From Deltaproteobacteria bacterium (lineage in GTDB: Bacteria > Desulfobacterota > Desulfobacteria > Desulfobacterales > Desulfosarcinaceae): a DNA stretch of 64,000 bases. This document shows positions 14,739 to 46,293 of this stretch, piece by piece. Both the position numbers and the translations under genes were made by a program. The notes under the pieces were generated by a model. It did not search any database, was not told where the DNA came from, and saw only the letters and a list, made by a program, of their open reading frames with translations. The stretch lies in assembly GCA_021824175.1 (NCBI GenBank), contig JAKALP010000010.1, positions 1-64,000 on the forward strand. Reading direction: 5' to 3'. Each line of letters begins with the position of its first letter. Position 1 is the stretch's first letter.

Positions 14739-15956
14739 TCAATGCACGGGGCTCTTTTCCTCAATCACCAGGGCCGGCCGCACCAGGACGGTCACCACGA
14801 AAATCCCGATGGCAAAAACCCCGGCGGTCACACCCAGCTCCACCAGGCTGGGGGAGTAGGAGACCACTTCACCCAGGGGCGAGGGCACCAGACCGGGCAC
14901 GATCAGTCCCATGCCTTTTTCGATCCAGATGCCGATAAACAGCATGATGCAGGCCGGCAGCAGCACCTGGGGTTTGTTGCCGCCCGGATTGAAGGCCAGG
15001 ATCAGGGTGCCGCTCACGTTCAAGGCAATGGCGCTCCAGATCCAGGGCACCAGGGCGTCGTGACCCTTGAGGCCGAAGAAGAGATAGGTGGCCGACAGGC
15101 TGTGGTGGGTGGGGAAGTAAAACTCCTTGAAGATTTCCGAAAAGAGCATGATCAGGTTGACAATGGCCGAAATCACGATGATCAGCCGCAATTTGTTGAA
15201 GGTATTGACCGGAATTCTAAAAGAAGTATTGGCATGCACGGCCACCAGCACGGTGGTGATCAGGGCCGGGCCGGCCGCAAAGGCCGAGGCCAAAAAGCGC
15301 GGGCCCATCATGGGGTTGTTCCAGAAGGCGCGCGCCGGCAGCCCTTCGTACAGGAAGGCCGTGACCATATGGATGGCAAAGGCCCAGAAGATCGAGAGAA
15401 ACACGAAGGGTCGGTACTTTCGGGGGTCGGGCTGGCGGCCGTGAAACTGGCAGAAGAGAATATAGGCCGGCACCAGCAAATTGAGGGCCAGATAGCCGTT
15501 GAGCACGATAATGTCCCAGGAGAGCAGCGACGAGGGCCAGTTCAGAATGCCGATGCCCGGCGCCAAATGCCAGGCTTTGTAAGGCCGGCCGAGATCCACA
15601 AAAACAAACAGCATGCACATCACCAGCGCGCCCACGGCCACGCCTTCGCCGATGATCACCACCCGGTGCAGATCCTTGTCCTTGAAGATATAGGCCGGCA
15701 GGATCAGCATCACGGCCGCGGCCGCCACGCCCACCAGAAAAGTAAAGTTGGAGATGTAAAAGCCCCAGCTCACGATGTTGGACATGTTGGTGGCGGCCAA
15801 TCCCAGGCCGAGCTGTTTGAAATAGGCGTAAATGCCGATCATCCCGGTGGCCAGCAGACAACAAAAGAAGATCTGGTAGCCCACGCCGCCGGAGAGGTTG
15901 ATGGTGATGCCGTTTTTTATGAAGTCGATTACTTCTCTGGTGAGTGATTTCTTCAT
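14739..15956 (-). CDS. NrfD/polysulfide-reductase-type quinol-oxidising membrane subunit
   Basis: A 405-aa integral membrane protein with about ten helices, matching the NrfD/PsrC/HybB family. Family members exchange electrons between the quinone pool and a periplasmic 4Fe-4S subunit without heme. Here the partner is the Tat-exported ferredoxin-type protein encoded 400 nt upstream. I start it at 15956; the frame stays open 26 codons further, but those run through an 8-nt word array and read as repeats. No strong ribosome-binding site is visible before 15956. As last gene of the leftward nap cluster it would feed menaquinol electrons toward NapA, replacing NapH or NapC. Confidence 0.88.
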   Translation of the reverse strand: MKKSLTREVIDFIKNGITINLSGGVGYQIFFCCLLATGMIGIYAYFKQLGLGLAATNMSNIVSWGFYISNFTFLVGVAAAAVMLILPAYIFKDKDLHRVVIIGEGVAVGALVMCMLFVFVDLGRPYKAWHLAPGIGILNWPSSLLSWDIIVLNGYLALNLLVPAYILFCQFHGRQPDPRKYRPFVFLSIFWAFAIHMVTAFLYEGLPARAFWNNPMMGPRFLASAFAAGPALITTVLVAVHANTSFRIPVNTFNKLRLIIVISAIVNLIMLFSEIFKEFYFPTHHSLSATYLFFGLKGHDALVPWIWSAIALNVSGTLILAFNPGGNKPQVLLPACIMLFIGIWIEKGMGLIVPGLVPSPLGEVVSYSPSLVELGVTAGVFAIGIFVVTVLVRPALVIEEKSPVH

Positions 15957-15961
15957 ATTAT

Positions 15962-16016
15962 CCGTTGCCCGTTTGCCCGTTAGCCCGTTTGCCCGTTGGT
16001 CCGTGTGCCCGTCAAA
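15962..16016. repeat. tandem array of 8-nt words (CCGTTTGC type)
   Basis: Seven units of 7-8 nt: CCGTTGC, CCGTTTGC, CCGTTAGC, CCGTTTGC, CCGTTGGT, CCGTGTGC and CCGTCAAA, running directly into the start region of the NrfD gene. The 8-nt period with drifting sequence is the same style as the array at 16200 but a different word. Confidence 0.85.
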
Positions 16017-16199
16017 CACCTTAATTTTTTCCATCAGGTGTTTGATCCCGCCGGGCTTTGGCGGGGTTGGCCCGTGGTCGCTAACTCCAATTATTGCGGC
16101 TTAAAGAAACTGGATTCCCGCCTTCGCGGGAATGACGTCAAGAAGCACCGGGCCAAATCCTGCAGGCATTTCAAGCTTAATCATTTCTCCCTCATTCCC

Positions 16200-16351
16200 G
16201 CAGTCCCTTTGCCCCTCTGTGCCTATGTGCCTTTGCACCTTTGTGGCTCAACCACTCAGTCCCTCAGCCCCTTTGCGCCTTTGTCCCTTTGTGCCTTTGT
16301 GCCTCAGCCACTTTGTCCCTCAGTCCCTTAGTCCCTTTGCCCCTTTGCCCT
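16200..16351. repeat. tandem array of 19 degenerate 8-nt words (TTTGTGCC type)
   Basis: An uninterrupted run of nineteen 8-nt units in perfect 8-nt register, for example TTTGCCCC, TCTGTGCC, TATGTGCC, TTTGCACC, TCAGTCCC, TTTGCGCC, TTTGTCCC. Most units end in CC or C and begin with T. It fills the spacer between the 4Fe-4S gene (stop at 16360) and the NrfD gene, inside what should be one operon. The reverse-complement word appears in the arms around the four-helix-bundle gene at 21111-21607. Confidence 0.9.
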
Positions 16352-16359
16352 TCCCCCCA

Positions 16360-18084: not shown

Positions 18085-18759
18085 CTACTTCGTCGGCCTT
18101 TCAAATACTCCCGGAAACTGATCCGGCACGTGGCACTGCCGGCAGTTGCCCCGGGAGGCGTGCGTGGTCCGGATGCCTTCCACGGCCGCGGGCCCCACAT
18201 GGCAGGCAATGCAATTCTCCCGCATTTGCAATCCATGGGCCATGGGCGGCGGCGCGCCGGGCAGATAGGCCCGTCCCAGTTTGGGCGGCGGCACGCTCAG
18301 CCACAGGTTTTCCACGAACAGGGGAACATCGGCCTGGGGCACATGGCACTGGCGGCACTCGCTCTTCTCCGGATGGGGCGTCAGCGGCGTGTGGCGCTGG
18401 AATTCGGGCGCAAAGCCCCCCTTTTCATGGCAGGCCAGGCAGGTCAGGGCCGCGCCGTTTTCATCCACCATCTTGTGAGGAATTATCGGCGGCGCGCCCA
18501 GGTATTGACGCCGGGAGTAGTATTCGGCCAACGTCCGCTGGGGCGAGGCCGCATTCAGGTAAGCCTGGCTGATGCGGTTGTAGCTGTCGAACAGGGCCGC
18601 GCCATTGTAATCAAAGGTCATTTTGGACGCGGCGATGGTGCTCGGCTGCTTTTCGGGGGGCGCCGAGAGCGCCGAGTAGACCAGCAACGGCAGCAGAAGA
18701 AGACAGATGCCCACGCCCACGGGGAAGATCTTTCCCAATTGCTTCTTTGGATGGTCCAT
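18085..18759 (-). CDS. membrane-anchored tetraheme cytochrome c subunit
   Basis: 224 aa. One N-terminal hydrophobic segment (residues 12-32) anchors or exports it; four heme c motifs follow: CLACH, CRQCH, CIACH and CRQCH. The stretch after the anchor (FDYNGAALFDSYNR, PPIIPHKM) resembles the NapB small subunit, which normally carries two hemes, so this may be an enlarged NapB-type partner of NapA. The ATG overlaps the napA stop codon (TGATG), so the two are translationally coupled. The alternative upstream in-frame start inside napA is unlikely. Confidence 0.85.
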   Translation of the reverse strand: MDHPKKQLGKIFPVGVGICLLLLPLLVYSALSAPPEKQPSTIAASKMTFDYNGAALFDSYNRISQAYLNAASPQRTLAEYYSRRQYLGAPPIIPHKMVDENGAALTCLACHEKGGFAPEFQRHTPLTPHPEKSECRQCHVPQADVPLFVENLWLSVPPPKLGRAYLPGAPPPMAHGLQMRENCIACHVGPAAVEGIRTTHASRGNCRQCHVPDQFPGVFERPTK

Positions 18760-21074
18760 CAGGCTCTCTCCACTTTGACGGCGCATTTCTTGTAATCGGG
18801 TTGTTTGGAAATGGGGCAGAAGGCATCCAGGGTCACTTCGTTAATCAAATACTTCTCATCGAAGAAGGGCACGAAAACCATGCCCCTGGGCGGATTGCCG
18901 CGGCCCTCGATGCTGGCCTTCATGATGATGGAACCCCGGCGTGAAGTAATCTTGACCTTGCCGCCGTTGACGATGCCCAGATCGGCGGCATCGTCGGGGT
19001 GGATCTCCACATAGGATTCGGGCATGGCCTTGTGCAGGATGGGCACCCGGCGAGTCATGGAGCCGGTGTGCCAATGCTCCAGCACGCGGCCGGTGTTGAG
19101 CCAGAAGGGGTATTCGCTGTCGGGCGATTCGGCGGCCGGCTCATAGGGCCTGATCCAGATCCAGGCCTTTTTGTCCGGTTTGCCGTAGAAGTCAAAATCA
19201 TCGCCCTTGGCGGCTGGGTCGTACTTGGGGTTGTAGCGCCATTTGGTCTCCTGGCCGTTTACAAAGGGCCACTGCACGCCAGGGCGCTCCTTGAGCACCG
19301 TGTAGGGCGCCATGCGGTGCTTGGGGTTGTCGTGAAAGCGGGTGTACTCGTTCCAGATCTCTTCGATGTACTTCTCGCGGGGCCAGGGGAATTGCTTCTC
19401 GAAGCCCAGGCGCCGGGCCACTTCGATCAGCTGCCAGGTGTTGCACATGGCCTCGCCGGGCGGAGGCACGATGCGCTCATTGTGCTGGGTTCTTCTCTCC
19501 GAATTACCGAAAAATCCTTCGCGCTCGATCCACAGGGCCGAGGGCAGGATCACATCGGCCACATCGGCCGTGGGCGTGGGATAGATTTCGGAGACCACCA
19601 CGAAACGATCTTCCTTGAGCGCGCCGTTGCGGTAGCGGGTCAGGTTGGGCATGGTGACCATGGGGTTGGTGACCTGAATCCACATGAAGCGGATGTCGCC
19701 CCGGTCCAGGGCCCGGAACATCTCCACGGTGTGGTAGGTGGGCTTGGGATCGATGTTGGTGACCGGCACGTTCCAGATTTCGGCCGCCATCTTGCGGTCT
19801 TCTTCGTTCATCACCACGCCGTGGGGCAGGGCGTGGGTCAGGGTGCCCACCTCGCGTACGGTGCCGCAGGCGCTGGGCTGGCCGGTCAGCGAAAAGGGAC
19901 TGTTGCCGGGCGTAGCAATCTTGCCGGTCAGCAGATGGATGTTGTAGACCAGATTGTTGATCCAGGTGCCGCGGGTGTGCTGGTTCATGCCCATGCACCA
20001 GAAAGAAGTAATCTTCTTGCCCGGATCGCCATACAGGGCCGCCAGGTAGCGGATATCCTTGGCCGGCACGCCGGAAATCTTCTCCACGTTTTCGGGCGTG
20101 TACTCCTTCAGGAAGTTCTTATACTCTTCAAGGCTGGAATTCTCCTCCTTGTCGTTGAAAGTAAAATGATCTTCGGTGCCGTAGCCGATGTGGGTCAGCC
20201 CCTTGTGGAAGGAGACATGCTTTTTCACGAAATCCCAGTTGACCCAATCGTTGTGGAAAAGCTCGTAGCAGATGGCGTTGGCCACGGCCAGATCGGTCTG
20301 GGGTTTGAAGAGAATGGATTTGTCGGCAGCTTGACTGGAGCGGGTGGTGCGGGTGGCGAAATCGATGATCTTGACGTGGGTGCGGCTCTTGCGGTTGGCG
20401 ATCATGCGGGAGAAGAGCACCGGGTGCATTTCGGCCATGTTGTTGCCCCAGGTGACATAGACATCGGCGTGATCGATGTCGTCATAGCAGCCCATGGGCT
20501 CGTCCAGTCCGAAGCTGGTCATAAAGCCGGTCACCGCGCTGGCCATGCACAGCCGGGCATTGGCCTCCACATTATTGGTGCCGATGCAGCCCTTGAAGAA
20601 TTTGGAGGCCGCATAGCCGTCGGCAATGGACCACTGGCCCGAGCCGTAAATGGCCACGCTGTCCTTGCCCTTGGCGGCGATGGTCTCCTTGAGCTTGGCG
20701 GCCACCAGATCCAGGGCTTCCTGGATGGGCACGGGCTCGAGCTTGCCGTTTTTGCGCACCAAGGCCTGCTTGAAGCGGTCCTTGCCGTAGAGGATCTGCA
20801 CCGAGTGATACCCCTTGACGCAGCAAAGCCCCTTGTTCACCGTGCAGTTGGGGTCGCCCTTGACGGCCACGGCCCGTTCGCCGGACACTCCGACCAACAG
20901 CCCGCAGCCGGTGCCGCAGAAACGGCAGGGGGTTTTCTTCCATTCAATACTGCCGGCCATGGAGTCATCGCTTTGCCAGGCGCCGAAGGTGATTCCTGGA
21001 AAGAGCGAGGCGGCCGCCAGCGCGGCGCTGTTTAAGGCCATGGCTTTGATGAAGTCGCGTCGGTTGATTGTCAT
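18759..21074 (-). CDS. napA: periplasmic nitrate reductase catalytic subunit NapA
   Basis: A molybdopterin (bis-MGD) oxidoreductase of 771 aa that reduces nitrate to nitrite in the periplasm. The Tat signal is [10 protein letters not shown] (residues 4-13). The 4Fe-4S site is CRFCGTGC (50-57) with a further Cys near 84. The molybdenum Cys lies in ARLCMASAV near residue 175. [18 protein letters not shown] is a hallmark of the nitrate reductase branch rather than formate dehydrogenase or arsenate reductase. napD lies upstream in the same direction but is separated by an inserted four-helix-bundle cassette. AAAAAGGAGC precedes the ATG. Downstream cytochromes, 4Fe-4S and NrfD proteins form its electron path. 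Confidence 0.93.
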
Positions 21075-21094
21075 GCGGGGCTCCTTTTTGGAAA

Positions 21095-21151
21095 GGGACT
21101 AAGGGACAAAGGGGCAAAGGCACAAAGGCACAAAGGAACTGAGGCACAGAG
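21095..21151. repeat. left arm: tandem 8-nt words (GGCACAAA type)
   Basis: Seven 8-nt units, from GGGACTAA, GGGACAAA, GGGGCAAA and GGCACAAA (twice) to GGAACTGA and GGCACAGA. The last 41 nt (21111-21151) pair with 21567-21607. The array ends about 20 nt upstream of the napA ribosome-binding site. Confidence 0.85.
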
Positions 21152-21607
21152 CCTTTTGCCGCCATTAGCATTTATCGATTTTGCTGATCATGCTGCTCAA
21201 CATTCTTTCAATTTCCCTGCTTTTGTCATAGAACTCGGCAAAACTTTTCTCAGGCAAAAATTGTAGGTTCTTAGATATTTCCAATTGTGTTTGAATTTCG
21301 AATATCGACCCCATGGCAATTTGTAAAAACCTTAGATAGTCCTTGGTCGATTTTCTCCCATACCCCTCGGCGATATTGCTTGGGATGGAAATTGCCGATC
21401 GTTTTATCTGCGCCGTTAATCCGAACAGCTCTTCTTTTGGAAACGATTTGAGAACACTATAAATCTCTGTGACAAATTGTACTGCTTTCTGCCAAACGAT
21501 GAGATCCCTATATGTTTTAGGCATGATACCTTACCCTTACTCTTCTCAGCCATTTCACCGCTCTTCCTCTGTGCCTCTGTCCCTTTGCGCCTTTGTGCCT
21601 TTGCCCC
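21111..21607. mobile_element. four-helix-bundle gene cassette with 41-nt terminal inverted repeats
   Basis: A 497-bp unit bounded by inverted repeats 21111-21151 and 21567-21607 (38 of 41 positions complementary; 39 of 43 if extended by two). The only gene inside is the four-helix-bundle gene at 21165-21524. Intervening sequences in 23S rRNA genes share this build: terminal complementary ends around a four-helix-bundle (S23) gene. Here it sits between napD and napA, which elsewhere are normally adjacent, so it looks inserted. No target-site duplication was obvious by eye. Confidence 0.8.
21165..21524 (-). CDS. four-helix-bundle protein (S23/Avd-like)
   Basis: 119 aa, entirely helical, matching the four-helix-bundle family first known from 23S rRNA intervening sequences: YRDLIVWQKAVQFVTEIY at the start, then FGLTAQIKRSAISIPSNIAEGYGR, the family signature, and a C-terminal helix with RMLSSMISK. 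Relatives include Avd, the accessory protein of diversity-generating retroelements, which binds reverse transcriptase and RNA. No reverse transcriptase or template repeat is visible here. AAGG lies 6 nt before the ATG. Its role in this cassette is unknown; transposition without its own nuclease is implied by the flanking repeats but not explained. Confidence 0.9.
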   Translation of the reverse strand: MPKTYRDLIVWQKAVQFVTEIYSVLKSFPKEELFGLTAQIKRSAISIPSNIAEGYGRKSTKDYLRFLQIAMGSIFEIQTQLEISKNLQFLPEKSFAEFYDKSREIERMLSSMISKIDKC

Positions 21608-21838
21608 TCAACCATCCCGATGCCCAAACGTCATACTAAGCGACTGCAACGCGGGCAGGGCCTTGAGCCGATCTTGCAGGAGCCGCTCGGTCTCTTCATC
21701 GGGGGTGTCGGTGACCAGCAGCAGTACCTCCTGCTGGTCGGCGGGAATTACTTCGCACTGCTCCAGGGCGCTGAGGGCTTTAAAAAGCATCTGCTTGCCC
21801 CCTGTTACCGGGTACGCCAAATAGCTGAAGACGGGCAT
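21608..21838 (-). CDS. napD: NapD-type maturation chaperone
   Basis: A small soluble protein of 76 aa with the two-strand, two-helix layout of NapD (LEQCEVIPADQQEVLLLVTD and a following helix). NapD binds the Tat signal of NapA and holds it back until the cofactor is loaded. It is the first gene of the nap cluster, with AAGGAGC before its ATG. The short length and divergent sequence leave some doubt, but position before napA supports it. Its stop codon directly abuts the right arm of the four-helix-bundle cassette. Confidence 0.75.
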   Translation of the reverse strand: MPVFSYLAYPVTGGKQMLFKALSALEQCEVIPADQQEVLLLVTDTPDEETERLLQDRLKALPALQSLSMTFGHRDG

Positions 21839-22260
21839 GGGCGCTCCTTGCGGATTTCAATTCAAACGCTGAGATGGGATTACGGTGTTGCTTAACAAAT
21901 CAGACAGGCGGTTCTGAGAACTTCCGGCTCGATGAGGATTGAGCTCTATTTAAGACAACCTTTGAAGCCGCCGTCAAGGGATTTGTGCTTAATGAGTATA
22001 AGTCACGTGTTGCCTATCGGCGCTTTCTCAATCGTACTCGTACGCGTACTCGTACTCGAAATGGCCGGAAGAACTCCTTCGAGCGCGCGTACGAGTGCCG
22101 CTTCGCTGAGTACGAGTACGGAAATGTCGGCCTCGTATCTATGCTGCGAGCAGCGGTTGTGACTCACACCTGTGCTTAAACGTCATGCATCATGCCGCCA
22201 GGCAGCCCAAAAGCAATTGACTTAAGTCAAGAGGTCCGGTGGGCGATGACGCATAAGCGC
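21839..22260. repeat. nap upstream region with inverted hexamer words
   Basis: No gene is seen in this stretch, which must hold the nap promoter. It contains a run of ACTCGT-type 6-nt words at 22033-22059 and complementary words at 22090-22120; arms 22033-22043 and 22110-22120 are perfect over 11 nt. The short frames that cross it are made of the repeats themselves. Confidence 0.6.
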
Positions 22261-22439
22261 TAACCTAATTGAATATCGAACATCGAACAAGGAACAGCAA
22301 AATGCCGAAGGAACTTAGACAGTATGATCTTGAGGAACGGCTGATGGATGTTGCCGTACGTATTATCCAAACCTCTATATGGCATTACCAAAACAAAAAA
22401 CTTTGTTATTCGATATTTATTGTTCAATATTCGATATTC
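22261..22439 (+). mobile_element. decayed four-helix-bundle element
   Basis: Left end 22261-22309 is shared (47/49) with the remnant at 17997-18045. Arms 22271-22290 and 22420-22439 pair at 18 of 20 positions and are made of TATCGAACA/TTCGATATT words. Inside is only the beginning of a four-helix-bundle gene. I read this as a cassette of a second sequence type that has lost most of its gene. Confidence 0.7.
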
Positions 22440-22469
22440 TTTTTTCAACAGAACCTATTTGTCTATTAA
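22302..22469 (+). pseudogene. truncated four-helix-bundle gene
   Basis: The ATG follows AAGGAACAGC, which is itself part of the repeat arm. The first 24 codons give QYDLEERLMDVAVRIIQ, the usual opening of a large four-helix-bundle subfamily (DLEERL.DFAVRII). Then the similarity stops and the frame runs through the right arm to a stop at 22469. A normal member is about 115-125 aa, so roughly 90 residues are missing. It is not a close paralogue of the intact protein at 21165. Confidence 0.7.
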
Positions 22470-22534
22470 GGCTATCGCTTACTGGCGCGATGGAGCCCCC
22501 TTGGCGCGTCCGGCCATTGGGGGCATCATCAATT

Positions 22535-25500
22535 TTATTCCAAGGTGTAATGGCAAACCACCAGGACGTCATCCAGCGGTGCGACATCGGTTTTACTACC
22601 GGAAAGGTTCAGGTCGAGATGCTCCGCATCCGTTTCCAGGGTGACTCCGCTCCAGGCAGGATCGGTGCGATGTTTTTTCAGCCGGCCGATGGGATCGCCC
22701 ACCACCAGCGGGATGCCGCTCAACGCGGGCCAGGCGGTCAAGACCTGATCTTCTTTGGGCGACCAGAGGAAATCCAGGCGGTTGATGGTAATGGCATGAC
22801 CGTGGAACACAAAGGGCCAGCGGTCGCGGCCGAGCGTGAAGGTTTGAGAAGTATTATTATCTTCCGGCCCGCCATTTAAAAAGCGGTGCCACTCGCCGGA
22901 AAATTCGTGCTTCAGGCTGAAAAACCGCAGCAGGCCGGTGGTCTGGCTGGCGGAAACAATGGCGTTGACGGCCGCTTTCAAACTCTCCATGGCATCCAGC
23001 TTAAACTGGCCGCTGTCTTCCCTGGCGGTGTACTTCAGGTGCAGGACCACATCCGAAATGGTGTTGTAATCAAAGGACCTGAAATCGTTGGGCAGCTCGA
23101 TGTGCCAGGTGCTGATGGCGCCGGCGCCTTCAAAGGGCAGAAAGCGTTCGTCCCTGAAATTGAGTTCGAACATGCCGCTGTCGTTCTGACCGTGGCTGAC
23201 GGCAATGGATTGGATCGTGCCCTGGCTGTCGACAAAACGATCATCGTCTATGGACAGCCCCTGTGAATCGACGGCGCGCGCGTAGCCGCCGGCGCCGACC
23301 CGCGCCGTGCGCCGGTAACTGTGGCTCTTCAGCCGCAGGGTGCAATTGAGACTGGTGTACGGCCCGACCACGCACGGGATGGTGAGGCTGACCGATTTGA
23401 GGCGCCGGAAGTAATGGCCGGGAAAATCCATGTCAAAGAGGGGTTCGGGAATCGACACATCACAGGCACCGGTCTCCTTCAATTGGATCAAAGCCAGGGG
23501 GTCCAGCAGCCACAGCGACACCTGCTTGGTGATTTCCAGCTCGCGGCGGTTGCCCTCCAGGTAAGCCATCTCCAGGCGCTTGAGATCGAAGTGCAAGCGC
23601 TCGCCGGCCAGCAATCCTTTTTTGAGGCTGTCCCAATAGCCGAACTGGATAACGCTGGAGTCTGCCAATCCCAGTTCATGGCGATAGGCGCGCTCGGCGC
23701 GCTTGGCCAGCTCCTGCACCAGTTGGTAGGTGCGGAAATACAGCAGGCTCAGTTGCGCGCCCATCCAGCGGTAGAGTTCCTGATTGGTGAATTTGGCGTG
23801 CATGAAGTCGTCGATCTGCTGGGCGTTGTCGATTTGCTTCTTGAGATGGTCAAGTTCCTGGGCCGCAATGGCCTGGCGGATCTCGGCCGCGGCGATCTGC
23901 TTGTCGATTTGCTGCAGGTCGCGCAGGGCCAGGTTGGCCTGGAAGATCCAATCATCGCGGCGGCGCTGGTAGCCGGCAATGATGGCATTTTTAGTGGCAT
24001 TGGCGTTGATGTAGGCCGAGACCGCATTCAAAGTTCCGGCAATGGCGTTGAGGCCATGGCCGACGCTCTGGGCGACCTTGAACACCGTGCCGGTGGGGTC
24101 AAAGTAAGCGCCCACCGCAAAGGCCACCCCCGCGCCGGCGCTGACAATCCCCGAAGCCAGGGCCATATCCCGGGCCGTGCCCAGATTGTCGAGTTGGCCC
24201 TTTTCGGTCTGACTGATGCCCAGGCCGCTGGCCTCGGCGTCCAGTCCGGACTTGGCCAAGCTAAGGGGAATGGGCTCCAGGCTGACGGCCACGCCGGGCT
24301 GGGGCACGCTGATGTCGCTGCGGCCCAGCAGCAATTGATAATGGCGATAGCGCTCCTCGGCCGTGCGCCGCGATTCCGCCAGGCCTTCGGTGTTGAGCCG
24401 GGCCTCTTCGATCTGGTTTTGCTTGATCTGCTCGGTCAGGCGCAGCAGTCCAATCTCATGTACAGAGCGCAGCAGGGCCAATGCTTCGGCATCCTGCTTC
24501 TCCAGGGCGGCCAGCAGCGCGGCCCCCAGGTTTTTGAGTTCGGCGCAGGCCTCCACGGCTTTGGGCAGGATCACGTTAAAGCGGTACGCCGGCAAAGGCG
24601 CGGCCAGATCGGCCAGAACCGTGTCCAGATCCAGCCCGGCGGCCGCGGCCTTGACCAGCAGGGCCGGGTCAATGGGCGGCTCGAACAGCGGCAGGCGGCG
24701 CTCGATGCCCTCGATGTTCATGCAGTGGCGGATCTTGAAGAGCCGGTCATCCACGGTATCCCAGAGAGCTTCGATGCCGCCGTTGGGAGGCACACAGAAG
24801 TAAAGTCCCTGCAGGGGATTGGCGATGGGCGAGTCGGAAGTATTGCCATTGGCATTCCAGGAGGGGTCCCATTGGTTCGGAAAGAGCGGGGTGGCGGCCG
24901 CCAAATCTTCCAGGGCCACCCAGGCATTGGAGAGTTCGTCGAGTTTTGAAACGGTATGGGCCAGCTCCAGATAGCTGTGGGGCGAGCGCCCGCAACTTGG
25001 AACCGAGGCGGGTCGCGGCCCCAGGATGCGCGCGGCCAGCACGTAAAGCTGCATGGCCTCGTTGATGGTTTCCAGGGTGTCGCGCCGGAAGAGTTGGTCG
25101 CCCCAGGCCATCAGATTTTGGATGTATTTGATCACCACGGCCCATTGGTAAGCGCGGATGCGGAAACGCGCAATCAGATGGGGTTTAAAAGGATCGTCCT
25201 TCCAGGCCGCGATCTCATCGCGCAGAGCCTGCAGCCCGGTCTGGGTGTCGTCGCCGGCGTCGCGGGCCAATTCTTCCAGCAGGGATTCAATGTCCTGGCC
25301 CTGGCCGGCCTGGCGGAAGGGCGGAAAGCGCCAGTAGCGTATGGCCTCATTTTTCTCCGGGTCGTTGGTGGTGGGATCAAAGATGGTGTGGAACCAGCGC
25401 TGGGCCTCCTCGAAGCGCTGGGCCGCGCTCAACTGGGTGGCGATCAGGAGCGGTGCGTGGAAGAATACTTCCCATTCATAACTTCCGGCCGGACGACCGT

Positions 25501-28500
25501 ACTCAAAAGAGATCGACAGGTCCTTGGCCGTCAGGTTCATATCCAGACAGCTCAGGTGGGAAGTATCCAGGGGAATGGCGGGAGTAGATGTGGGCGTCCT
25601 CGGTACCGGCAGGTGGTCGAGCTCGATGCCGGAAGGATCGGCGCGATCGAAATTTCTGATTCCAGAAAAAATCCAGTCCTGGCCCGCGGGCACCACGCGG
25701 GCTTTGAGCTGGTGCCACAGGAAGAAAAACCGGAAGCGGTCATCGGCATAAGCCTGGTTGACGAAGTCATCGCCGGAAACCGGCTGGGTGGCCGGCATGA
25801 AATAACGTCCCGCCGCGGCGCTGAGATAGCCCCTGACCGGTCCCGAGCTGTAGGCCATTAACTGCCGGTGGCCTGAACGAAAGTACTCCCAGTCCATATA
25901 GGGCTTTTCCAGATCGCCGGCAGACAAACTGGTGCCCACCACCGAAAAATCGTCATAGATGATGAATCCCGGCAGGGGGTGTAGTACAATCAATCGGTTT
26001 TCGGCAGGCGCGGGATAATTGCTCTCCGGCTTGACCGTAAAGACCAGATCGTTTTCATAAGTGCCGCTGAGCATGGCGCTGATATCAATGGTCAGGGATT
26101 GGGAGGGCTCGCTGTGATAGCGGGGATCGCCCTGCACCGTGATGAGGAGCTGGGTGAAGTGCGGCCAGGGAATGGCTTTGGTGTCGAGACCGAAGACCCA
26201 GGGCAGTTGCTCATAGGGCGAGACTTCAAATTCATTCAGCCGGGTCAGCGAAGTAAGTCCGGGGTATATGTATGGACCGACTTTAAACTCAAAGGCGGCC
26301 AACACTACGACCTGGGGAATCCAGGCCCCGCCGGCGCGGCCCCTGGGCTCGGCGTAAAACGTGTGACCGGCTTGATCCACGAATTTCTCCAGCACGCGCA
26401 CGCGCGCCTGCAACGTCTGCCAGCGGGGCGGGTCGCTGGCGTTGTACTTCTGGGTGATGGTCAAGCCGCCGCTGGCCGGCGCCAGGGTCAGTGTGACGCC
26501 AAGGTCCGCGGCATAACAGGAAACATGCATGCCGTCGCGGCCCTGATCCGTGAAGGGGTTCAGGTTGAATACGCAGGTGGTGGCTTCATCCTTGTTGGGC
26601 ACGATGGGCGTGGTCACGGCTTGCTTGGAGCGATTGACATTGGACCATCCTTGCTTGGTTTTGCGGCGCACCGCCATCTGGACTTTCCAGTTGGTTTTGT
26701 TCTCATCCGGCGCGATCTCCGCGTAGGCCAGATGAACAAATCCAGCCAGCTTGAAGACAAAGACGTGTTCGCTGTCGACCGTGCCGTCAATGCTTTCCCA
26801 GGGAGTCCAGGAAAAGGCGCCGTTGCGCATCGTCAGTTGGCGATGGTAATGGTGGGCAGGCGAACCGTCGTCCCGGGCCACGATTTGAATGACCCGATCC
26901 CAATAGCCCGGCTGCATGGGATAGGAAGCATTCGTCAATTTTTCTTCCCACAGGGCTACCACGGTCAGGCGCGCGATTTCAGCGGCTTTTTCCAGATAGC
27001 CCCGGAAGGCGTCGCGGCAGGCCTCGTGGTCCAGGTTCTCCTGCATCAGATCCGATTCAAAGGCGCGGAAGATTTCGCTTTTGTCATCGCGCAAATCCGG
27101 TTCGATCCAGTTTTCGGGAAAAAGAAATACTTTGCGGTTGGCTTCCCACACCCGGTAGTTCTTCATCCAACGCCAGTGCGTGGTGTTGATATCGCCGGGC
27201 GCCACGGCAATGGGGGCCTGGCTTTCGAGGTTGAGCAAACAGCGCTGGATAAAGAGCTGGACCGCGCTGATGGCCTGCTTGACGCGCGAGGTGCGCATGC
27301 ACGGTTCCATTTTGACATCCATGAGAAAGTAGTCGAGCAGGGCGTTTTCATCGCTCAGCCCGTCGCGCCATTGCAGATAGCTGACCAGGGCGTCGCGCTG
27401 GCGCACCCGCAGTTGATCGGAGATCGGCTGCAAGCGCTTGGGCAGGGTTTCGGCGTCAAATTGGGCCATGAAGAGTTTGCGCGCCGCCATGGCGTCGGCC
27501 GCGCTGGGGGCTTGGGCCAGCAACCCCTGGATGACGGCGACATTGGTGCCGAGCAGGCGCAGCAGATTCAAAAACTCCACCAGACCGCGCAGATCGCACG
27601 GGGCGCAGGCCGGAGCAGTAAACCGCAGATGGAGAAAATCGCAGGCAGCTTGAACCTCGGAAGTCTTCAGTTGGTAGGCTTGAGCCAGCACCAGGGCGAT
27701 ATCATTAAGAGTAGTAGCAGAGTGGCGCTGGAAGATATCCGTGATCGCCTGCAGTGTGCCGGCGCCACCGGCCACCCTATCCTTGAGCTGGATCAACTCC
27801 ACCAGAGCCAGCCAGGCGCCGATGGGCACGGGTGGCTCTTGTGCGGCCGCGGGCAGCTGGTTGAAATTGAGCACCTCCCAGGCCCCGCCATCGATCCAGG
27901 CCAGTTGGGTGGAGATCAAACCTGAACCGCGCAGCAGCCGGGCAACTTTATCCAAACGGAGAAGAGTGCGGATCTGGTCGCTGAATTGGGCGGGGTCCAG
28001 GGCTTGGGCGGCATCCGAGGCCAACAGGGCCGGGTCTAGAAGAACTTCCAGGGCCGCGCGTTGGGTGCCAGGCTGGGAAGACATTCGAATATGATCGAGC
28101 AAGTACCGCATGACCGGCGCTTCCAGACCCAGCAGGGAGCTCAGGTGCGAGACCAATAGCTCGGCAAGCGGGTCTGGCCCAGGGGCCGTGCCCTGGGATG
28201 GATCGTCCGTGGGTGGGGCGCTGCGTTGCAGCAGATCCCGGAGTTCAACCAGGGATGCGAGCGTGCGCGCCTCCGCATCTTCGAATTCTCCCCGCAATTC
28301 ATGGCGCAACAGGTAGTAAAGTTCATCTAGGCCTATGCCGGATTGCCGGGCGCCATCCAGTTGCTCGGCAAAGGTCAACAGGGCTTGGGCCCGGGCCGTG
28401 AAATCGGCCTGGGCCAAGGGATTGCCAAGCAAGCCGATCCAGCCCAACAGGTCGGCCGGGCTGAGGCGCAGGCCGCGGCCCAGGGTGACGAGGCCGAAGA

Positions 28501-31500
28501 GCCGCGTTACATTGGCCAGCGTCAACTCATCGGCCATGGCCAGCGGGCTTTGGGGGGCCACTATTTGTTCCACATCCGCGGGTGATATGCCCAGGGCCGC
28601 TGATAGAAAATGAGTATGGTCCGACAGTTTCTGAATCGGCTGGGTGGCGAGATAGTTCAGTTCCGTGCCCGCGGTATTGAGACCAAACAGGCTAAAATCG
28701 GCGCTGGGCCGCAGGGCATTGCGCTGGAACCGGCCCTGGTAAAGGGACGGCAGAGACGGTTCACCCTCTTGGGTATGATCGATCCAGGGATTAACTTCCA
28801 TGTGTCCGAGCAAGGCGGCGATGTGGAGCATCGGCTGATTGAGCCGGGCGCGCAGGCGGGCCGCCAGAGAGAACGGCTGGCGCTGCCAAAGGCCGGCCGC
28901 GCTGGTGATGCCCAGGGCCGCGAGCACGCTGTTGAGCTCGCGCATGGACCAGCCCGTGCCGCGCCACAGGCGCGTGAAGGCGTGAATCCAAGCCAATTGA
29001 TGGGCGTCGCTGGTCTCAAACCACATCTTGGCCGGGTGGCACTCGCCTTCGGGCAAAATGGCGGTCCAGGCCGCGGGGCCGGTCTGACGAATATCCAGCA
29101 ATTGGCGATAGCTCAGACCGGAGTGCCGCAGCACCAGGCCCACCCACTGCAATACAGTCAGCCAATCGCCGCTGTGCACTTGGCCCAGACTATCCGTGAC
29201 GCGGTTGTTGTTCTGGCGCAGGCCCCACGCCTGCCAGGGCTGGACATTGGCCAGGGCCAGATCGGCCGGGCTGAAACCGAGTACTTCGCAGCAATAAAGA
29301 TTCGAAGTGCGATCCACGCCGGCCATCTCCATCAGCTTCTGGCGCGGCACCCCCAGTTCGCGCAAGCAGGCGCGGATCTCTTCGGTCCACAGATCCAGCG
29401 GCAGGGTCCAGGGGAAGATCGCCTGGCGCAGTATTTCGTAAGCCGCCGGGTTGCGGTTTTCGGGCACAGCGACCAGATCGGTCTGGATGGAAGAGCTGCG
29501 GTAGATCAACGACAATACTGCCAGCATGGCCTCGGAAATAGCCAGGGTCATGAGTTCATACTCGATGCGCAACGTCCACATGTCCGTGGCGGCATCGTGG
29601 GTTTTGTCATAGGGCAACGCCGGCAGCCCCAAGAGGGCCAGCACCGCTTTTACTTCCTGGGGCCGCAGCCGCCGGTCGTTGCTGAGCCAGGAAGCAATCA
29701 ACGGCAAGGCTTTGGCCGGCACCGGATCTTCATGCAGTACTTCACCTTCCAGGGTGCTCCAGCGCAACACTGCTTTGGGGCGACCTTCGATGATCTGGAG
29801 GCGAATGGCGGCCGTAAAGTCAATTCGGCGAGCCACGCTGAACTCAATCAGGTCGGAGGAGAGCGGAGCCGCGGCCTTTTTCACCGCCAGCGCCAGCGTG
29901 AAGCCAAGTTTTTGTAACTGCTGCCACAGTTTGCTGGCCACGTGGGCTTCCCCCAGCGGGGGCGGCAATTCGCCTTTTTTCAACCATTCTTCGATGGTGT
30001 CGGCATCGACCTTGAGGTCGCCGATGGGAATCATTTGCCAGGAAGATTTGGGTACGGCGGCCCACACCAGTTTGGGAAGATAAGCGGCCACCCATTGCCG
30101 GGCCCCGTCGTCCAGCTTGAAGATCGGGGGCAGTTGTCCCAGGGTTTGAATGATGGTGGCGGGGTCAAGATGCGCTCCCAATGAAATCGCCAGCAGAGGC
30201 CAGTAATCGGTCAGCGGCGCGGCCGTCAGGTTTTCTCCGATGGTGATGGCCGTGGCTTGCAGGGCCGCGCGAATGGCCGCGGGAACCTGATGCTGGGCAA
30301 GCTCGGCCAGGATCTGAGCCGATTCGGCCGTGGAGACTTTGCGGACCGTGGGCAGGGCCACCGTGTTCTCCAATATCTCCAGCACCAGATCGATGTAAGG
30401 AATTTCAATATTGGTGTTCTCGCAGGTCAGCAGTAAATTGGCCAAGTCCGGCCGCCGCCGGAACAGAGCCAGAAAGGGCCGGGTGGTAGGGCTGGATTGG
30501 CTTGAAATCGGCACCGCCTTGCCGGACTGTTCCAGAAAGTGCAGCAGGTCAGCCAGATAAGCGGCCGGGCCCAGCACCGATTGACAATGGCGGCAGGCGC
30601 AGTAATCCAAATCGCCGAAGAGCGCGCGCAGGTTGGGATAGCGATTGAGAAAATCCGCGCCGGCCAAAGGGCGCGGCAGAGCCGGAATCTGATGGCCATT
30701 GAACTGAGGCGAGAAGCGCGCGCTCAACGCCAAAGCGGTGGTCGCCGTCTCCTGGGCCGTGGCGTGAATCGCCAGAATGGCTTCTTCTTCCAGTTGGCCG
30801 GACAGACTCCCGGTGAGAAGCGCGCTGCCAGCGCGCACAATGGCGTGGGCCGAATCAAAGCCCGCGTTAAGCAAGGCCGCGGCCGCCTCCAGGGTGCCGG
30901 CCAGGGGCAGCATGCGTTGCAACTTTTTCAGCGCGGCGCTCAATTCAGGCGACTTTACGCCGACCCGCGCCAGAAACGCTTCGGCTCGTTCGGCGCGGAT
31001 ATCAAAGTCGGGATGGTCGCTGAGCATTTGGATGAATTGCTCGCGGGGAAGATCCTGGATTTCAATTGCACCGGTTGATAGGCGCGTCCCCAGCATTGCC
31101 ATGGGAAAGCGCCGCTCTACTTGGTTTTCCAACTCAAAGGCGTAGGCCACTTCCGAAAGTCCGCTGCCCGGAGGTGCGCCATGGGTCAAGGCCAGATCCA
31201 GCCACTGCCGGCGCGCAAGCTTGGCCAGGTAAGCCGCGGAGGCTGGCGCGGAAGTATTGCGCAGGCCTTGCAGCGCGGCCATTAACGCGCCATGGCCCTG
31301 GGTGATCTCGCTTAAGGCCAGCGTGCGCTGCAGGGCCGGCATGCGGCCCGCATAGCCGCCGGCGCTGGCCTGCTGCCACAGCATCGCGCTATGGCCGTGT
31401 TGACTAAAATCAAGGGCAAAGGCGGTTCGTTCTTCCTGATCGAGGGATTCCTCGGCCGGCAGGGTAGCCAGCACATCTCCCAGGGAAGATGGCTGTCCGG

Positions 31501-32413
31501 CTTGGGCTGGTTCTAAAAGCGCTTCAGCCCTAAGCCGCGGCAGAGTCTGCACCAAAATGTGATCGATTTCTTCGAGGGGGAGCGGTTGAATCAGGTTGAG
31601 CGCTTCGGCGCGCTTGACCGCCCCGATAATCTTGGTGCGATCCAGGCCGAGCAGCACGGCCGGATCAATGGATATCTCCTGGCAGAGCAGGCCGTAATAA
31701 AAGGTGGCCAGCGCCGAATTCCCGGCGGCCTGTTTCTGACTTTGGGCCAGCCACTCGATGCGGCGGGCATCGATGCCGGTCTTTTTAGCGAGAAAGCCGG
31801 CCTGGACCGGTGTCAGGCCCGGCAGGCCCAGCTTGTCCCGCAGCAAAGGCTGCAAGGTCTTCGCAAACCGTTGCAACTCCGGCTGCGCAGCCACGGTGAG
31901 CACAAAATCCTTGATCACTTCCTGACCGGCGTTGAATATCACATCCGAGAACTGCAACGCCTTTTCTTCCTGGAAAAGACCGACCACCAGGTCGGCGGCG
32001 GTTTTGGCGCCCAGTTGTTCTTTGGTATAGGTGATGGAGTAATTGCCCTGGGCATCGCTGACCGCCTGGCCCAGCAGCATATCTTCCGCGCCCAGATTGC
32101 GGTCAAAGGCCCGCGCAGTTATGCCACCGGCCAGCGCGCCGTCTTGTTTGCGGACCGCGCCGTGCACCACGAATTGGGGTCGATCGGTCCCCTGGGAAAG
32201 CAGTGCGGCCGTGACCTCATCCACTTCTCCGGTCGGTTTCAGACCGTGCTTTTGCTGAAAATCGATCACCGCCCGGCGGGTCGTCTTGCCGAAGTGCTTG
32301 GCCGATATCTCCGTTTCCAGGATCAAATAACCAAGGGATACAAGCACCTCGTGCAAAACACTGACGGTGGCGCGTTTCATGTGAAGCCTTAAAGGAAAAG
32401 CGATGGTCGGCAT
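22535..32413 (-). CDS. TcA-type subunit of an insecticidal toxin complex
   Basis: 3292 aa. In ABC toxin complexes TcA pentamers form the receptor-binding, membrane-piercing tube that injects the TcC effector. Seen in order: a peptidoglycan-binding-like head (about 10-75, FGKTTRRAVIDFQQKHGL), a beta-sandwich (80-175), the Tc signature CRHCQSVLGPAAYLADLLHFL near residue 600, long helical shell regions, a neuraminidase-like domain beginning near 1765, helical hairpins rich in heptads near 2700-2850 that would form the channel, and the TcB-binding end from about 2950. Length exceeds typical TcdA (about 2500), partly through the extra head. TAGGAG precedes the ATG. It follows the TcB-TcC fusion gene by 131 nt on the same strand, so they form one operon. 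Confidence 0.92.
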   Translation of the reverse strand: MPTIAFPLRLHMKRATVSVLHEVLVSLGYLILETEISAKHFGKTTRRAVIDFQQKHGLKPTGEVDEVTAALLSQGTDRPQFVVHGAVRKQDGALAGGITARAFDRNLGAEDMLLGQAVSDAQGNYSITYTKEQLGAKTAADLVVGLFQEEKALQFSDVIFNAGQEVIKDFVLTVAAQPELQRFAKTLQPLLRDKLGLPGLTPVQAGFLAKKTGIDARRIEWLAQSQKQAAGNSALATFYYGLLCQEISIDPAVLLGLDRTKIIGAVKRAEALNLIQPLPLEEIDHILVQTLPRLRAEALLEPAQAGQPSSLGDVLATLPAEESLDQEERTAFALDFSQHGHSAMLWQQASAGGYAGRMPALQRTLALSEITQGHGALMAALQGLRNTSAPASAAYLAKLARRQWLDLALTHGAPPGSGLSEVAYAFELENQVERRFPMAMLGTRLSTGAIEIQDLPREQFIQMLSDHPDFDIRAERAEAFLARVGVKSPELSAALKKLQRMLPLAGTLEAAAALLNAGFDSAHAIVRAGSALLTGSLSGQLEEEAILAIHATAQETATTALALSARFSPQFNGHQIPALPRPLAGADFLNRYPNLRALFGDLDYCACRHCQSVLGPAAYLADLLHFLEQSGKAVPISSQSSPTTRPFLALFRRRPDLANLLLTCENTNIEIPYIDLVLEILENTVALPTVRKVSTAESAQILAELAQHQVPAAIRAALQATAITIGENLTAAPLTDYWPLLAISLGAHLDPATIIQTLGQLPPIFKLDDGARQWVAAYLPKLVWAAVPKSSWQMIPIGDLKVDADTIEEWLKKGELPPPLGEAHVASKLWQQLQKLGFTLALAVKKAAAPLSSDLIEFSVARRIDFTAAIRLQIIEGRPKAVLRWSTLEGEVLHEDPVPAKALPLIASWLSNDRRLRPQEVKAVLALLGLPALPYDKTHDAATDMWTLRIEYELMTLAISEAMLAVLSLIYRSSSIQTDLVAVPENRNPAAYEILRQAIFPWTLPLDLWTEEIRACLRELGVPRQKLMEMAGVDRTSNLYCCEVLGFSPADLALANVQPWQAWGLRQNNNRVTDSLGQVHSGDWLTVLQWVGLVLRHSGLSYRQLLDIRQTGPAAWTAILPEGECHPAKMWFETSDAHQLAWIHAFTRLWRGTGWSMRELNSVLAALGITSAAGLWQRQPFSLAARLRARLNQPMLHIAALLGHMEVNPWIDHTQEGEPSLPSLYQGRFQRNALRPSADFSLFGLNTAGTELNYLATQPIQKLSDHTHFLSAALGISPADVEQIVAPQSPLAMADELTLANVTRLFGLVTLGRGLRLSPADLLGWIGLLGNPLAQADFTARAQALLTFAEQLDGARQSGIGLDELYYLLRHELRGEFEDAEARTLASLVELRDLLQRSAPPTDDPSQGTAPGPDPLAELLVSHLSSLLGLEAPVMRYLLDHIRMSSQPGTQRAALEVLLDPALLASDAAQALDPAQFSDQIRTLLRLDKVARLLRGSGLISTQLAWIDGGAWEVLNFNQLPAAAQEPPVPIGAWLALVELIQLKDRVAGGAGTLQAITDIFQRHSATTLNDIALVLAQAYQLKTSEVQAACDFLHLRFTAPACAPCDLRGLVEFLNLLRLLGTNVAVIQGLLAQAPSAADAMAARKLFMAQFDAETLPKRLQPISDQLRVRQRDALVSYLQWRDGLSDENALLDYFLMDVKMEPCMRTSRVKQAISAVQLFIQRCLLNLESQAPIAVAPGDINTTHWRWMKNYRVWEANRKVFLFPENWIEPDLRDDKSEIFRAFESDLMQENLDHEACRDAFRGYLEKAAEIARLTVVALWEEKLTNASYPMQPGYWDRVIQIVARDDGSPAHHYHRQLTMRNGAFSWTPWESIDGTVDSEHVFVFKLAGFVHLAYAEIAPDENKTNWKVQMAVRRKTKQGWSNVNRSKQAVTTPIVPNKDEATTCVFNLNPFTDQGRDGMHVSCYAADLGVTLTLAPASGGLTITQKYNASDPPRWQTLQARVRVLEKFVDQAGHTFYAEPRGRAGGAWIPQVVVLAAFEFKVGPYIYPGLTSLTRLNEFEVSPYEQLPWVFGLDTKAIPWPHFTQLLITVQGDPRYHSEPSQSLTIDISAMLSGTYENDLVFTVKPESNYPAPAENRLIVLHPLPGFIIYDDFSVVGTSLSAGDLEKPYMDWEYFRSGHRQLMAYSSGPVRGYLSAAAGRYFMPATQPVSGDDFVNQAYADDRFRFFFLWHQLKARVVPAGQDWIFSGIRNFDRADPSGIELDHLPVPRTPTSTPAIPLDTSHLSCLDMNLTAKDLSISFEYGRPAGSYEWEVFFHAPLLIATQLSAAQRFEEAQRWFHTIFDPTTNDPEKNEAIRYWRFPPFRQAGQGQDIESLLEELARDAGDDTQTGLQALRDEIAAWKDDPFKPHLIARFRIRAYQWAVVIKYIQNLMAWGDQLFRRDTLETINEAMQLYVLAARILGPRPASVPSCGRSPHSYLELAHTVSKLDELSNAWVALEDLAAATPLFPNQWDPSWNANGNTSDSPIANPLQGLYFCVPPNGGIEALWDTVDDRLFKIRHCMNIEGIERRLPLFEPPIDPALLVKAAAAGLDLDTVLADLAAPLPAYRFNVILPKAVEACAELKNLGAALLAALEKQDAEALALLRSVHEIGLLRLTEQIKQNQIEEARLNTEGLAESRRTAEERYRHYQLLLGRSDISVPQPGVAVSLEPIPLSLAKSGLDAEASGLGISQTEKGQLDNLGTARDMALASGIVSAGAGVAFAVGAYFDPTGTVFKVAQSVGHGLNAIAGTLNAVSAYINANATKNAIIAGYQRRRDDWIFQANLALRDLQQIDKQIAAAEIRQAIAAQELDHLKKQIDNAQQIDDFMHAKFTNQELYRWMGAQLSLLYFRTYQLVQELAKRAERAYRHELGLADSSVIQFGYWDSLKKGLLAGERLHFDLKRLEMAYLEGNRRELEITKQVSLWLLDPLALIQLKETGACDVSIPEPLFDMDFPGHYFRRLKSVSLTIPCVVGPYTSLNCTLRLKSHSYRRTARVGAGGYARAVDSQGLSIDDDRFVDSQGTIQSIAVSHGQNDSGMFELNFRDERFLPFEGAGAISTWHIELPNDFRSFDYNTISDVVLHLKYTAREDSGQFKLDAMESLKAAVNAIVSASQTTGLLRFFSLKHEFSGEWHRFLNGGPEDNNTSQTFTLGRDRWPFVFHGHAITINRLDFLWSPKEDQVLTAWPALSGIPLVVGDPIGRLKKHRTDPAWSGVTLETDAEHLDLNLSGSKTDVAPLDDVLVVCHYTLE

Positions 32414-45533: not shown

Positions 45534-45630
45534 TTTCTATTTCTTCGGTTTTAAGCCTTAATTTTAAAGCATAAAGTTAAGGAATTCTACCTATAGCTTT
45601 AAACTTTGCTACTTTAAACTTTAAACTCTA

Positions 45631-46293
45631 CTACAACAACCCTGTCCGTCTTTTGGGCTTCTTCATCACCCAGCCGGTAATGAATCCGATGATCACCAGT
45701 CCACCGCCGTAGAGAAAGCCTTCAATGAGCTGGCTGCTCGCCAACTTATTGAGCTGGTTTTCAAACTGCTCGGATTTTTCCCTGGTTTCCTGGAGCTCCT
45801 TTTGATTCTTCTGATACTCCGCTTTGAATTTGAGAAATTCGGCGGACTCCTTTTTCAGGTTTTCATAGGCCGCTTCCGCCTTTTGCAACGCATCATGGGT
45901 CTGATTCCGGTCGCCGCTCACGCTTTTATTCTCCGCGCCCAGCTCGGCGAGCTTTTGCTGCAACTCCTTGTTCTGGCTGATGAGATCGGTATGCTTTTTC
46001 TCCAGCCGCTCCAATTTCATGGATGAAGGGGTCTCGGTGGTCAATTCCCTGTTCAGGGCAAAACCCTCCTTGCCATTGGAAAGGCGCACCTCGGACCACT
46101 CATCGCCCTGGTTGATCAGCTCCAGCTCGCGGCCGGCCGGCACCAGGGCAATAATCTTACGATCCGTGCCAGGACCGGTGCGCACCGCGATTTCGCAAAC
46201 ATCGGAGGCATATCTGATCTCAGCTTCGCCCATGGCAAAACAGATCAAAAGCCACAGCACCACCCAAATTGCAATTTTGGTTGCTTTTTTCAT
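45631..46293 (-). CDS. SH3-domain protein with C-terminal membrane anchor (TIGR04211 type)
   Basis: 220 aa. A signal peptide (KIAIWVVLWLLICFAMG) is followed by a bacterial SH3 domain (about 25-85, VCEIAVRTGPGTDRKIIALVPAGREL and GFALNRELTTETPS), then a coiled coil of about 90 residues, and a single C-terminal membrane helix (FLYGGGLVIIGFITGW) with a basic end. This is the YgiM/TIGR04211 layout; those proteins sit in the inner membrane with the SH3 domain in the periplasm and have been linked to envelope maintenance. Start at 46293 behind TAGGAGT. Confidence 0.88.
   Translation of the reverse strand: MKKATKIAIWVVLWLLICFAMGEAEIRYASDVCEIAVRTGPGTDRKIIALVPAGRELELINQGDEWSEVRLSNGKEGFALNRELTTETPSSMKLERLEKKHTDLISQNKELQQKLAELGAENKSVSGDRNQTHDALQKAEAAYENLKKESAEFLKFKAEYQKNQKELQETREKSEQFENQLNKLASSQLIEGFLYGGGLVIIGFITGWVMKKPKRRTGLL

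Follow-up and report, generated by a model that had tools for sequence, protein, structure and literature searches.

Between napD and napA of a Desulfosarcinaceae bacterium lies a small gene for an S23/Avd-like four-helix-bundle protein, enclosed by two inverted arrays of a tandem eight-nucleotide word, and word arrays of this kind flank genes of the same family (PF05635) in many phyla. The feature is best described as a putative mobile cassette, consisting of a word array, the S23 gene and the inverted word array. On the strength of sequence comparisons, we consider it reasonably probable that S23 is a word-specific binder of nucleic acid and that the cassette and the arrays are moved by an enzyme acting in trans. 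The confidences of the explanations weighed below overlap, and the reading of S23 as a regulator can hold alongside this preferred one.

The cassette between napD and napA

In the window (the whole stretch of 64,000 nt that was analysed), a repeat search finds two arms at 21110-21151 and 21567-21608 that are 42 nt long, 93% complementary and 415 nt apart; this agrees with an earlier sequence-only reading, which had described arms at 21111-21151 and 21567-21607 with 38 of 41 complementary positions. That the arms are built of tandem 8-nt words, as was also claimed, is borne out by TRF, which reports periods of 8 and 16 at 21092-21148 and 21566-21609. The left array (21092-21151), made of AAAGGCAC-type octamers, extends past the arm proper to about 21092; on the sense (minus) strand it is the 3' arm and stands downstream of the S23 stop codon. 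The right octamer array (21567-21608) is the 5' arm on the sense strand: it begins at the napD stop codon, which overlaps and abuts the first of the cassette's words, and ends 42 nt upstream of the S23 start codon. The flank-to-flank arm score of this locus is 69, compared with cross-locus means or medians of 16-21, and so exceeds what chance would give.

A single gene was placed between the arms (21165-21524, minus strand, 119 aa), consistent with the earlier claim that they enclose the S23/Avd-like gene alone. Its product, the window S23, matches PF05635 (E 1.8e-41, 141.1 bits against a cut-off of 33.8) and TIGR02436 (E 9e-40, 135.3 bits against a cut-off of 24). The four-helix-bundle fold is predicted from HMM matches and from a homologue of solved structure, the chain 2gsc, which is matched by the family profile A1 (E 5.7e-34) and is an assembly of five four-helix bundles according to the title of a paper cited in PMC10053308. 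The window S23 is basic (predicted pI 9.2), but this does not hold for the whole family (median pI 7.9).

Both neighbouring genes are also on the minus strand. The downstream neighbour napA (18759-21074) is above two NCBIfam NapA equivalog cut-offs; napD (21608-21838) matches Pfam NapD below the cut-off (E 1.5e-4, 22.2 bits against 28), and this call is backed by napD-like frames that precede napA at L232 and L233. Of the 39 other genomes searched, G008 (92%) and G014 (84%) alone have a NapA of more than 80% identity, and in both of them napA comes after a NapD-like frame with no cassette between: the distance from napD stop to napA start is 51 nt in G008 and 20 nt in G014, compared with 533 nt in the window. 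These short, gene-free junctions argue for an insertion at napD-napA, as the sequence-only reading had supposed when it proposed a comparison with an empty site, and the simplest reading is that the S23 cassette was inserted in the lineage of the host genome; since G008 and G014 are the only genomes with such a NapA, the comparison rests on two genomes. Neither of them carries the gene in place without arms, the arrangement that had been named as speaking against a cassette. When napD-napA is compared with G008 or G014, no target-site duplication is obvious, but the intergenic DNA of these two genomes has diverged too far for the comparison.

Further words and a very long reading frame are located elsewhere in the window. 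Just upstream of napD (22032-22110), TCGTAC/GTACGA six-nucleotide words are arranged in two short, opposed runs, an inverted word pair without a gene, and tandem-word arrays are present at 22407-22448 (TATTCGATATTC type) and at 45587-45634 (CTACCTAAAACTTTAAACTCTA type, resembling word 3 of the host genome, see below). Beside the nap region, a single ORF of 3292 aa occupies 22535-32413 on the minus strand.

Cassettes across the PF05635 family

PF05635 is present in at least 43 of the 60 genomes searched. To score arms, 200 nt from one flank of the gene were reverse-complemented and aligned with 200 nt from the other flank, with a threshold score of at least 30. The first set consisted of 92 PF05635 loci of related genomes (60 searched), taken from the upper part of the matches listed (32 given, 60 by place), with some places at contig ends passed over: inverted arms flank 66 of these loci, and swapped flanks reach the threshold in 2.3%. 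As controls from the same genomes, none of 30 ParE toxin genes and one of 94 pseudo-genes placed in the same loci had arms. In a second set of 77 named PF05635 loci from many phyla, from which L292, L303 and L310 had been left out (flank shorter than 80 nt), 49 have inverted arms (swapped flanks: 1.1%), including loci of Bacteroidota, Pseudomonadota, Bacillota, Planctomycetota, Acidobacteriota, Omnitrophota and candidate phyla; L284, the single archaeal locus whose flanks could be scored, reaches 29, just under the threshold. A third set comprised 12 cyanobacterial plasmid loci (of 15 listed of 34 records; L406/L411 and L410/L412 are near-copies), six of which have arms, two of the six between cas6 and cas4. 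S23 cassettes in this position are seen in CRISPR operons of Pseudanabaena and Anabaena plasmids (L401, 1498-1857; L405, 1492-1860); a cas6-S23-cas4 operon is present in Anabaena sp. 90. Clean GGGAACA arms are found on plasmids of Nostoc sp. C052 and N. edaphicum. Below the arm threshold are 26 of the 92 loci of the first set and 28 of the 77 of the second; the idea that arm-less S23 genes are rRNA intervening sequences (IVSs) was rejected, as none of 20 arm-poor named loci (score below 26) had an rRNA match.

The host genome has the same build elsewhere, which the sequence-only reading had proposed to search for: three PF05635 genes were found and all three have inverted tandem-word arms, each of another word (GTGCCTTT/AAAGGCAC, TTGCCCGT and AAGTTTAAAGTT type, respectively). 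Arm words are mostly 7-9 nt long. Word spacing is clear in 52 of the 66 armed loci of the first set (7 nt in 40, 8 nt in eight and 9 nt in four) and in 42 of the 49 of the second (7 nt in 33, 8 nt in eight and 9 nt in one). Read as 5' arm, the arms have more G than C at 65 of 66 and 42 of 49 loci of the two sets, respectively. The distance between the 5' arm and the S23 start codon is often no more than a few tens of nucleotides, and the 3' arm is near the stop codon. In one genome, three related S23 genes (L078, L101 and L104) lie within about 2.3 kb (G022:C1:4261067-4263385), each with GTGAACG-type arms.

The two arms of a cassette share a word and not a specially matched word order: for 23 inverted octamer pairs the within-pair scores sum to 1150, compared with 1134 +/- 47 when permuted, so that the window arms match each other no better than would two arrays of their word taken from different places in the host genome. 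The idea that the arms are, as a rule, exact copies of each other was therefore rejected, the within-pair match equalling the cross-pair match in these pairs; the own partner ranks first on at least one side for L057, L011, L022, L055, L065 and the window cassette.

The orientation of the S23 gene could be called for 64 of 114 cassettes: it runs with both neighbours in 45, against both in six and is mixed in 13. As the gene is usually in sense between host genes, S23 is probably expressed from host transcripts. The same preference for sense (45 vs 6) would suit an RNA-level intervening sequence as in 23S rRNA, with the arm stem trimmed from the host transcript by RNase III. In Coxiella, the 23S IVS contains an S23 ORF, and its terminal stem of 28 bp is cut by RNase III (PMC4990558). 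A fold that includes a long stem is likewise predicted for the RNA of the window cassette (-174.6 kcal/mol, z -6.6), although any inverted repeat would form a stem. The window cassette is outside rRNA, and no Rfam match was found in 20900-22500 at E up to 1. Mismatches in the sense stem show no bias of G-U over A-C (87 vs 80), and selection on an RNA stem was discarded on this count. We regard the trimmed-stem explanation as distinctly improbable.

Seven cassette pairs were aligned over the gene plus 400 nt to either side. In four pairs at different sites (L129/L126, L135/L132, L141/L139 and L156/L151; 84-89% identical), homology reaches at most 4 nt beyond the arms, and this stop at the arms identifies the cassette as the transmitted unit; L135 and L132 are about 10 kb apart in one contig, and the members of the other three pairs are in different genomes. 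The alignment of L082/L081 runs on upstream, so this site is shared; the homology of L139/L138 (79%) stops inside the 5' arm, and L071 (71%) aligns with the window cassette only over the gene and its 3' side. Thus, the arm-to-arm cassette is a unit that appears at unrelated sites. The four pairs have what characterises MITEs and foldback elements, namely terminal inverted repeats that bound a unit at unrelated sites; in the case of the window cassette itself, the closest relative has diverged too far for the unit ends to be seen.

S23 proteins that are related have a common word with the same polarity and, mostly, the same spacing (7, 8 or 9 nt), and unrelated ones do not. The word was compared among the 114 cassettes (L259 left out as a duplicate of L073), and the counted pairs of at least 50% identity all have outer flanks that do not align (31 pairs with aligning flanks left out). 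The word is shared in 21 of 22 pairs at unrelated sites with a protein identity of at least 70%, in 24 of 45 pairs at 60-70% and in 22 of 552 at 50-60%; among pairs below 50%, counted irrespective of their flanks, it is shared in 60 of 5,791. Among the 67 pairs of at least 60% identity the word polarity is the same in 45 and opposite in one. Spacing goes with the protein as well: when spacings of 7 are set aside, the nearest-neighbour agreement is 0.68 (permuted mean 0.15, maximum 0.52). Bacteroidota relatives of the window protein have octamer arms (L245, L246, L248, L250, L253 and L254; 54-63% identity); L247 and L249 (62-63%) and L252 are relatives, in the range of 58-63% identity, without arms at the threshold. 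The word thus follows the protein lineage, and arms and gene do not vary independently, the other outcome that had been named as speaking against a cassette.

A word that follows the protein could also be explained by co-inheritance only: the cassette would be moved by another system, and arms and gene would diverge together without the protein reading the word. At protein identities of at least 70%, arms are conserved in 20 and 18 of 22 pairs and spacers in 9/20 and 16/21, the downstream spacers (16/21) nearly as often as the arms (18/22); these figures indicate that the cassette descends as a unit and that the excess of words is moderate. At 60-70%, the arms exceed the spacers (20/45 on each side vs 8/39 and 4/28), which argues against co-inheritance only, but a cruder test on equal lengths of 30 nt has no excess of arms over spacers in this range (13 vs 14; 6 vs 2 above 70%). 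Words also persist while silent codon sites are near background (0.34-0.36 at 60-80% amino acid identity, background 0.29), and the dispersal of words tracks the presence of the gene, with exceptions (see below). Because the spacers are conserved as well, part of the link between word and protein is plain co-inheritance; that it is all of it seems to us unlikely.

A second gene family shares the flank style: in the same test, GxxExxY genes (PF13366, PD-(D/E)XK-type) have inverted flanks at 9 of 24 loci, the sample being those 24 of 30 fetched loci with the strongest matches (L189, L190, L191, L195, L198, L205, L207, L208 and L210; several of the flanks are word-like). Such partly word-like flanks around another gene, and the dispersal of words without genes, are what one would expect if words were a feature of the host genome and S23 genes landed in pre-existing arrays. 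Against this capture stands that S23 proteins less than 35% identical differ in word within one genome (1 of 59 pairs has a common word) and that related S23 proteins of different genomes have common words; we consider capture very improbable.

Word arrays without an S23 gene

Arrays without a gene are numerous mostly where the cognate S23 gene is present, with exceptions. Word 1, the octamer of the window cassette, has 211 matches in the host genome and three in ten congeners together. Apart from the host, only G047 (71%) of the 60 genomes has a protein of at least 50% identity to the window S23 (matches covering most of the protein), and its five octamer matches are all on the contig of its window-like S23 gene. 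Exceptions with word 1 in the absence of a close S23 gene are G050 (34 matches), G053 (27), G035 (19), G059 (15), G043 (12) and G032 (10). Word 2 has 243 matches in the host compared with 0-12 per congener, with a high reversed-pattern control (80). For word 3, all seven genomes that have a protein at least 60% identical to L003 reach at least 20 matches (20-480), compared with 4 of the 53 genomes that do not (Fisher 8.5e-7), and within the genus there are 66-480 matches with the gene and 0-13 without. This result is sensitive to the cut: G029 and G052 (56-58% identity) have six and 12 matches, and at a cut of 55% the count becomes seven of nine. Rich in word 3 without a close gene are G035 (112, reversed-pattern control 62), G047 (52), G059 (36) and G024 (25). 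That genomes holding the gene are peppered with gene-less copies of its word suggests that the S23 protein reads the word.

One of the array places sampled in the host genome is in the window, a gene-less array of the octamer family at 16201-16352. The idea that gene-less octamer copies are dead S23 cassettes was rejected, as their cargo is unrelated to the S23 gene in nine places compared. Eight octamer copies (L004, L033, L036, L039, L045, L050, L052 and L058) form a MITE-like family with outer inverted repeats of its own and the arrays inside, so that other elements may carry some of the arrays. Six copies of TTGCCCGT (word 2, with its S23 cassette on contig 10) are found at 15965-16012, at the 5' end of a 431-aa ORF (14739-16034), the true start of which may therefore lie further inside.

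The arrangement of the arrays bears on the possibility that S23 is a transcriptional or post-transcriptional regulator with the word arrays as its sites, the cassette being an autoregulated gene and the arrays multiplying via slippage, gene conversion and selection. Single arrays of word 1 are mostly in one orientation to transcription (18 vs 5 by a uniform method; 15 vs 2 in a first count), in line with a regulator, but this bias fails for the other three words (9 vs 13), and with a total of 27 vs 18 (p 0.23) it was dropped as evidence for RNA recognition. The S23 leader often contains the 5' arm, and binding proteins or regulators have been proposed for similar repeats: a TAACTGA-binding protein, possibly itself mobile (MacGregor 2015), and a putative global regulator for the paired tandem-word sites of Geobacter (PMC2700814). 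Inverted array pairs consist of the word followed by its reverse complement in 34 of 34 cases for four words, among the matches listed (the array places of words 2 and 3 were taken from among these matches, and some were already visible there as pairs). Regulation leaves this single polarity unexplained, as it does the homology that ends at the arms at unrelated sites. We therefore hold it to be a rather unlikely explanation, partly compatible with the preferred one of a word-binding S23 and a mover in trans.

Known systems and the proposed role of S23

The kinship to 23S IVS and Avd proteins that the sequence-only reading had pointed to stands at the level of the Pfam family. Like the 23S IVS (PMC4990558), the window cassette has a PF05635-type gene, an S23 ORF, between terminal inverted repeats; unlike it, the cassette is not inside a 23S rRNA gene and is located between protein genes, its arms consist of tandem words and the words are dispersed genome-wide. 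Avd of diversity-generating retroelements (DGRs) belongs to a homologous four-helix-bundle family (PMC10053308), but the window S23 adjoins napD and napA and not a reverse transcriptase, and its score with the Avd equivalog model is 31.9 bits against a cut-off of 80.

Closer in form are REPINs, described by Bertels and Rainey 2011 (PMC3116915), and their RAYT genes: here, too, a resident gene is flanked by its paired repeat, the repeats are dispersed as inverted doublets, several independent pairs of gene and repeat occur per genome and co-evolution has been proposed. The S23 cassette likewise has a gene flanked by its cognate repeat and dispersed inverted doublets, the repeat being an array of tandem 7-9-nt words, whereas REPs are short palindromes. 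RAYT is a tyrosine transposase (PMC3116915); the gene between the window arms belongs to PF05635 and not to the Y1 transposases, and S23 is a four-helix bundle without a recognised catalytic motif. A further difference is that the S23 cassette appears at unrelated sites. By the criteria tested, the window S23 is a member of PF05635 and neither a 23S IVS, nor an Avd equivalog, nor part of a RAYT system.

Two kinds of published repeats resemble the arrays. Geobacter metallireducens has paired sites of tandem 7-8-nt repeats in many copies, sorted into classes 1-3 and attributed to a putative global regulator; those of classes 1 and 2 are opposite-strand pairs at variable distance (PMC2700814). 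The main text of that paper assigns no protein to the sites and does not contain the term S23. TAACTGA heptamers are dispersed in Beggiatoaceae, Cyanobacteria and Bacteroidetes as tandem repeats with a patchy phylogenetic spread, and a putative binding protein, which may be a mobile element, has been proposed (PMC4679880); unlike S23 arms, these repeats are mostly direct and upstream of start codons, and the terms S23 and four helix are absent from the main text. The S23 arms of L300, L272 and L321 have TCAGTTA/G-type words, the reverse complement of TAACTGA-like words. In three genomes whose S23 arms hold TCAGTT words, the TAACTGA-type word has 3, 43 and 9 matches; of 12 other genomes, it is present in three (2, 8 and 105 matches) and absent from nine, including that of L305 (0 matches), the arm of which is partly similar. 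Four more papers mention GxxExxY, four-helix-bundle or IVS proteins and, in the text available, no word arms (PMC8934634, PMC8700078, PMC5524665 and PMC10910872).

We infer that the S23 cassette may work like a RAYT-REPIN pair in which the reader is non-catalytic. The four-helix-bundle protein, which is probably oligomeric, would bind tandem copies of its own word, as DNA or RNA, and a single protein would then have both the cassette and the gene-less arrays as its substrates, much as RAYT has REP sequences. No catalytic domain was found in the window cassette, and the strand transfer for cassette and arrays would for this reason be supplied by an enzyme encoded elsewhere. With the 5' arm in its own leader, the protein could also regulate itself.

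No report of a link between S23 and tandem words was found in the open-licence literature on the protein, on tandem words and on foldback elements, and the papers found give no role for PF05635 outside rRNA and DGRs. The author of PMC4679880 asked that the repeat-binding protein be identified and raised the possibility that this protein is the mobile element. Since each S23 lineage is paired with one word, there is now a candidate for such a repeat-binding protein, and the question becomes directly testable with a single small protein and a short oligonucleotide; the many independent pairs of protein and word are material for studying how a four-helix bundle could choose a sequence. Tentatively, and with somewhat less confidence than we have in a word-binding S23 as such, we suggest that PF05635 could be a large family of lineage-specific readers of tandem words (in DNA or RNA) that form, with their cassettes, a widespread class of selfish elements seeding arrays in many phyla. 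If true, this would account for the paired sites of Geobacter, for TAACTGA-type heptamers and possibly for the heptamer repeats of Cyanobacteria, the tandemly repeated STRR heptamers, and the intervening sequences of rRNA would gain a parent element.
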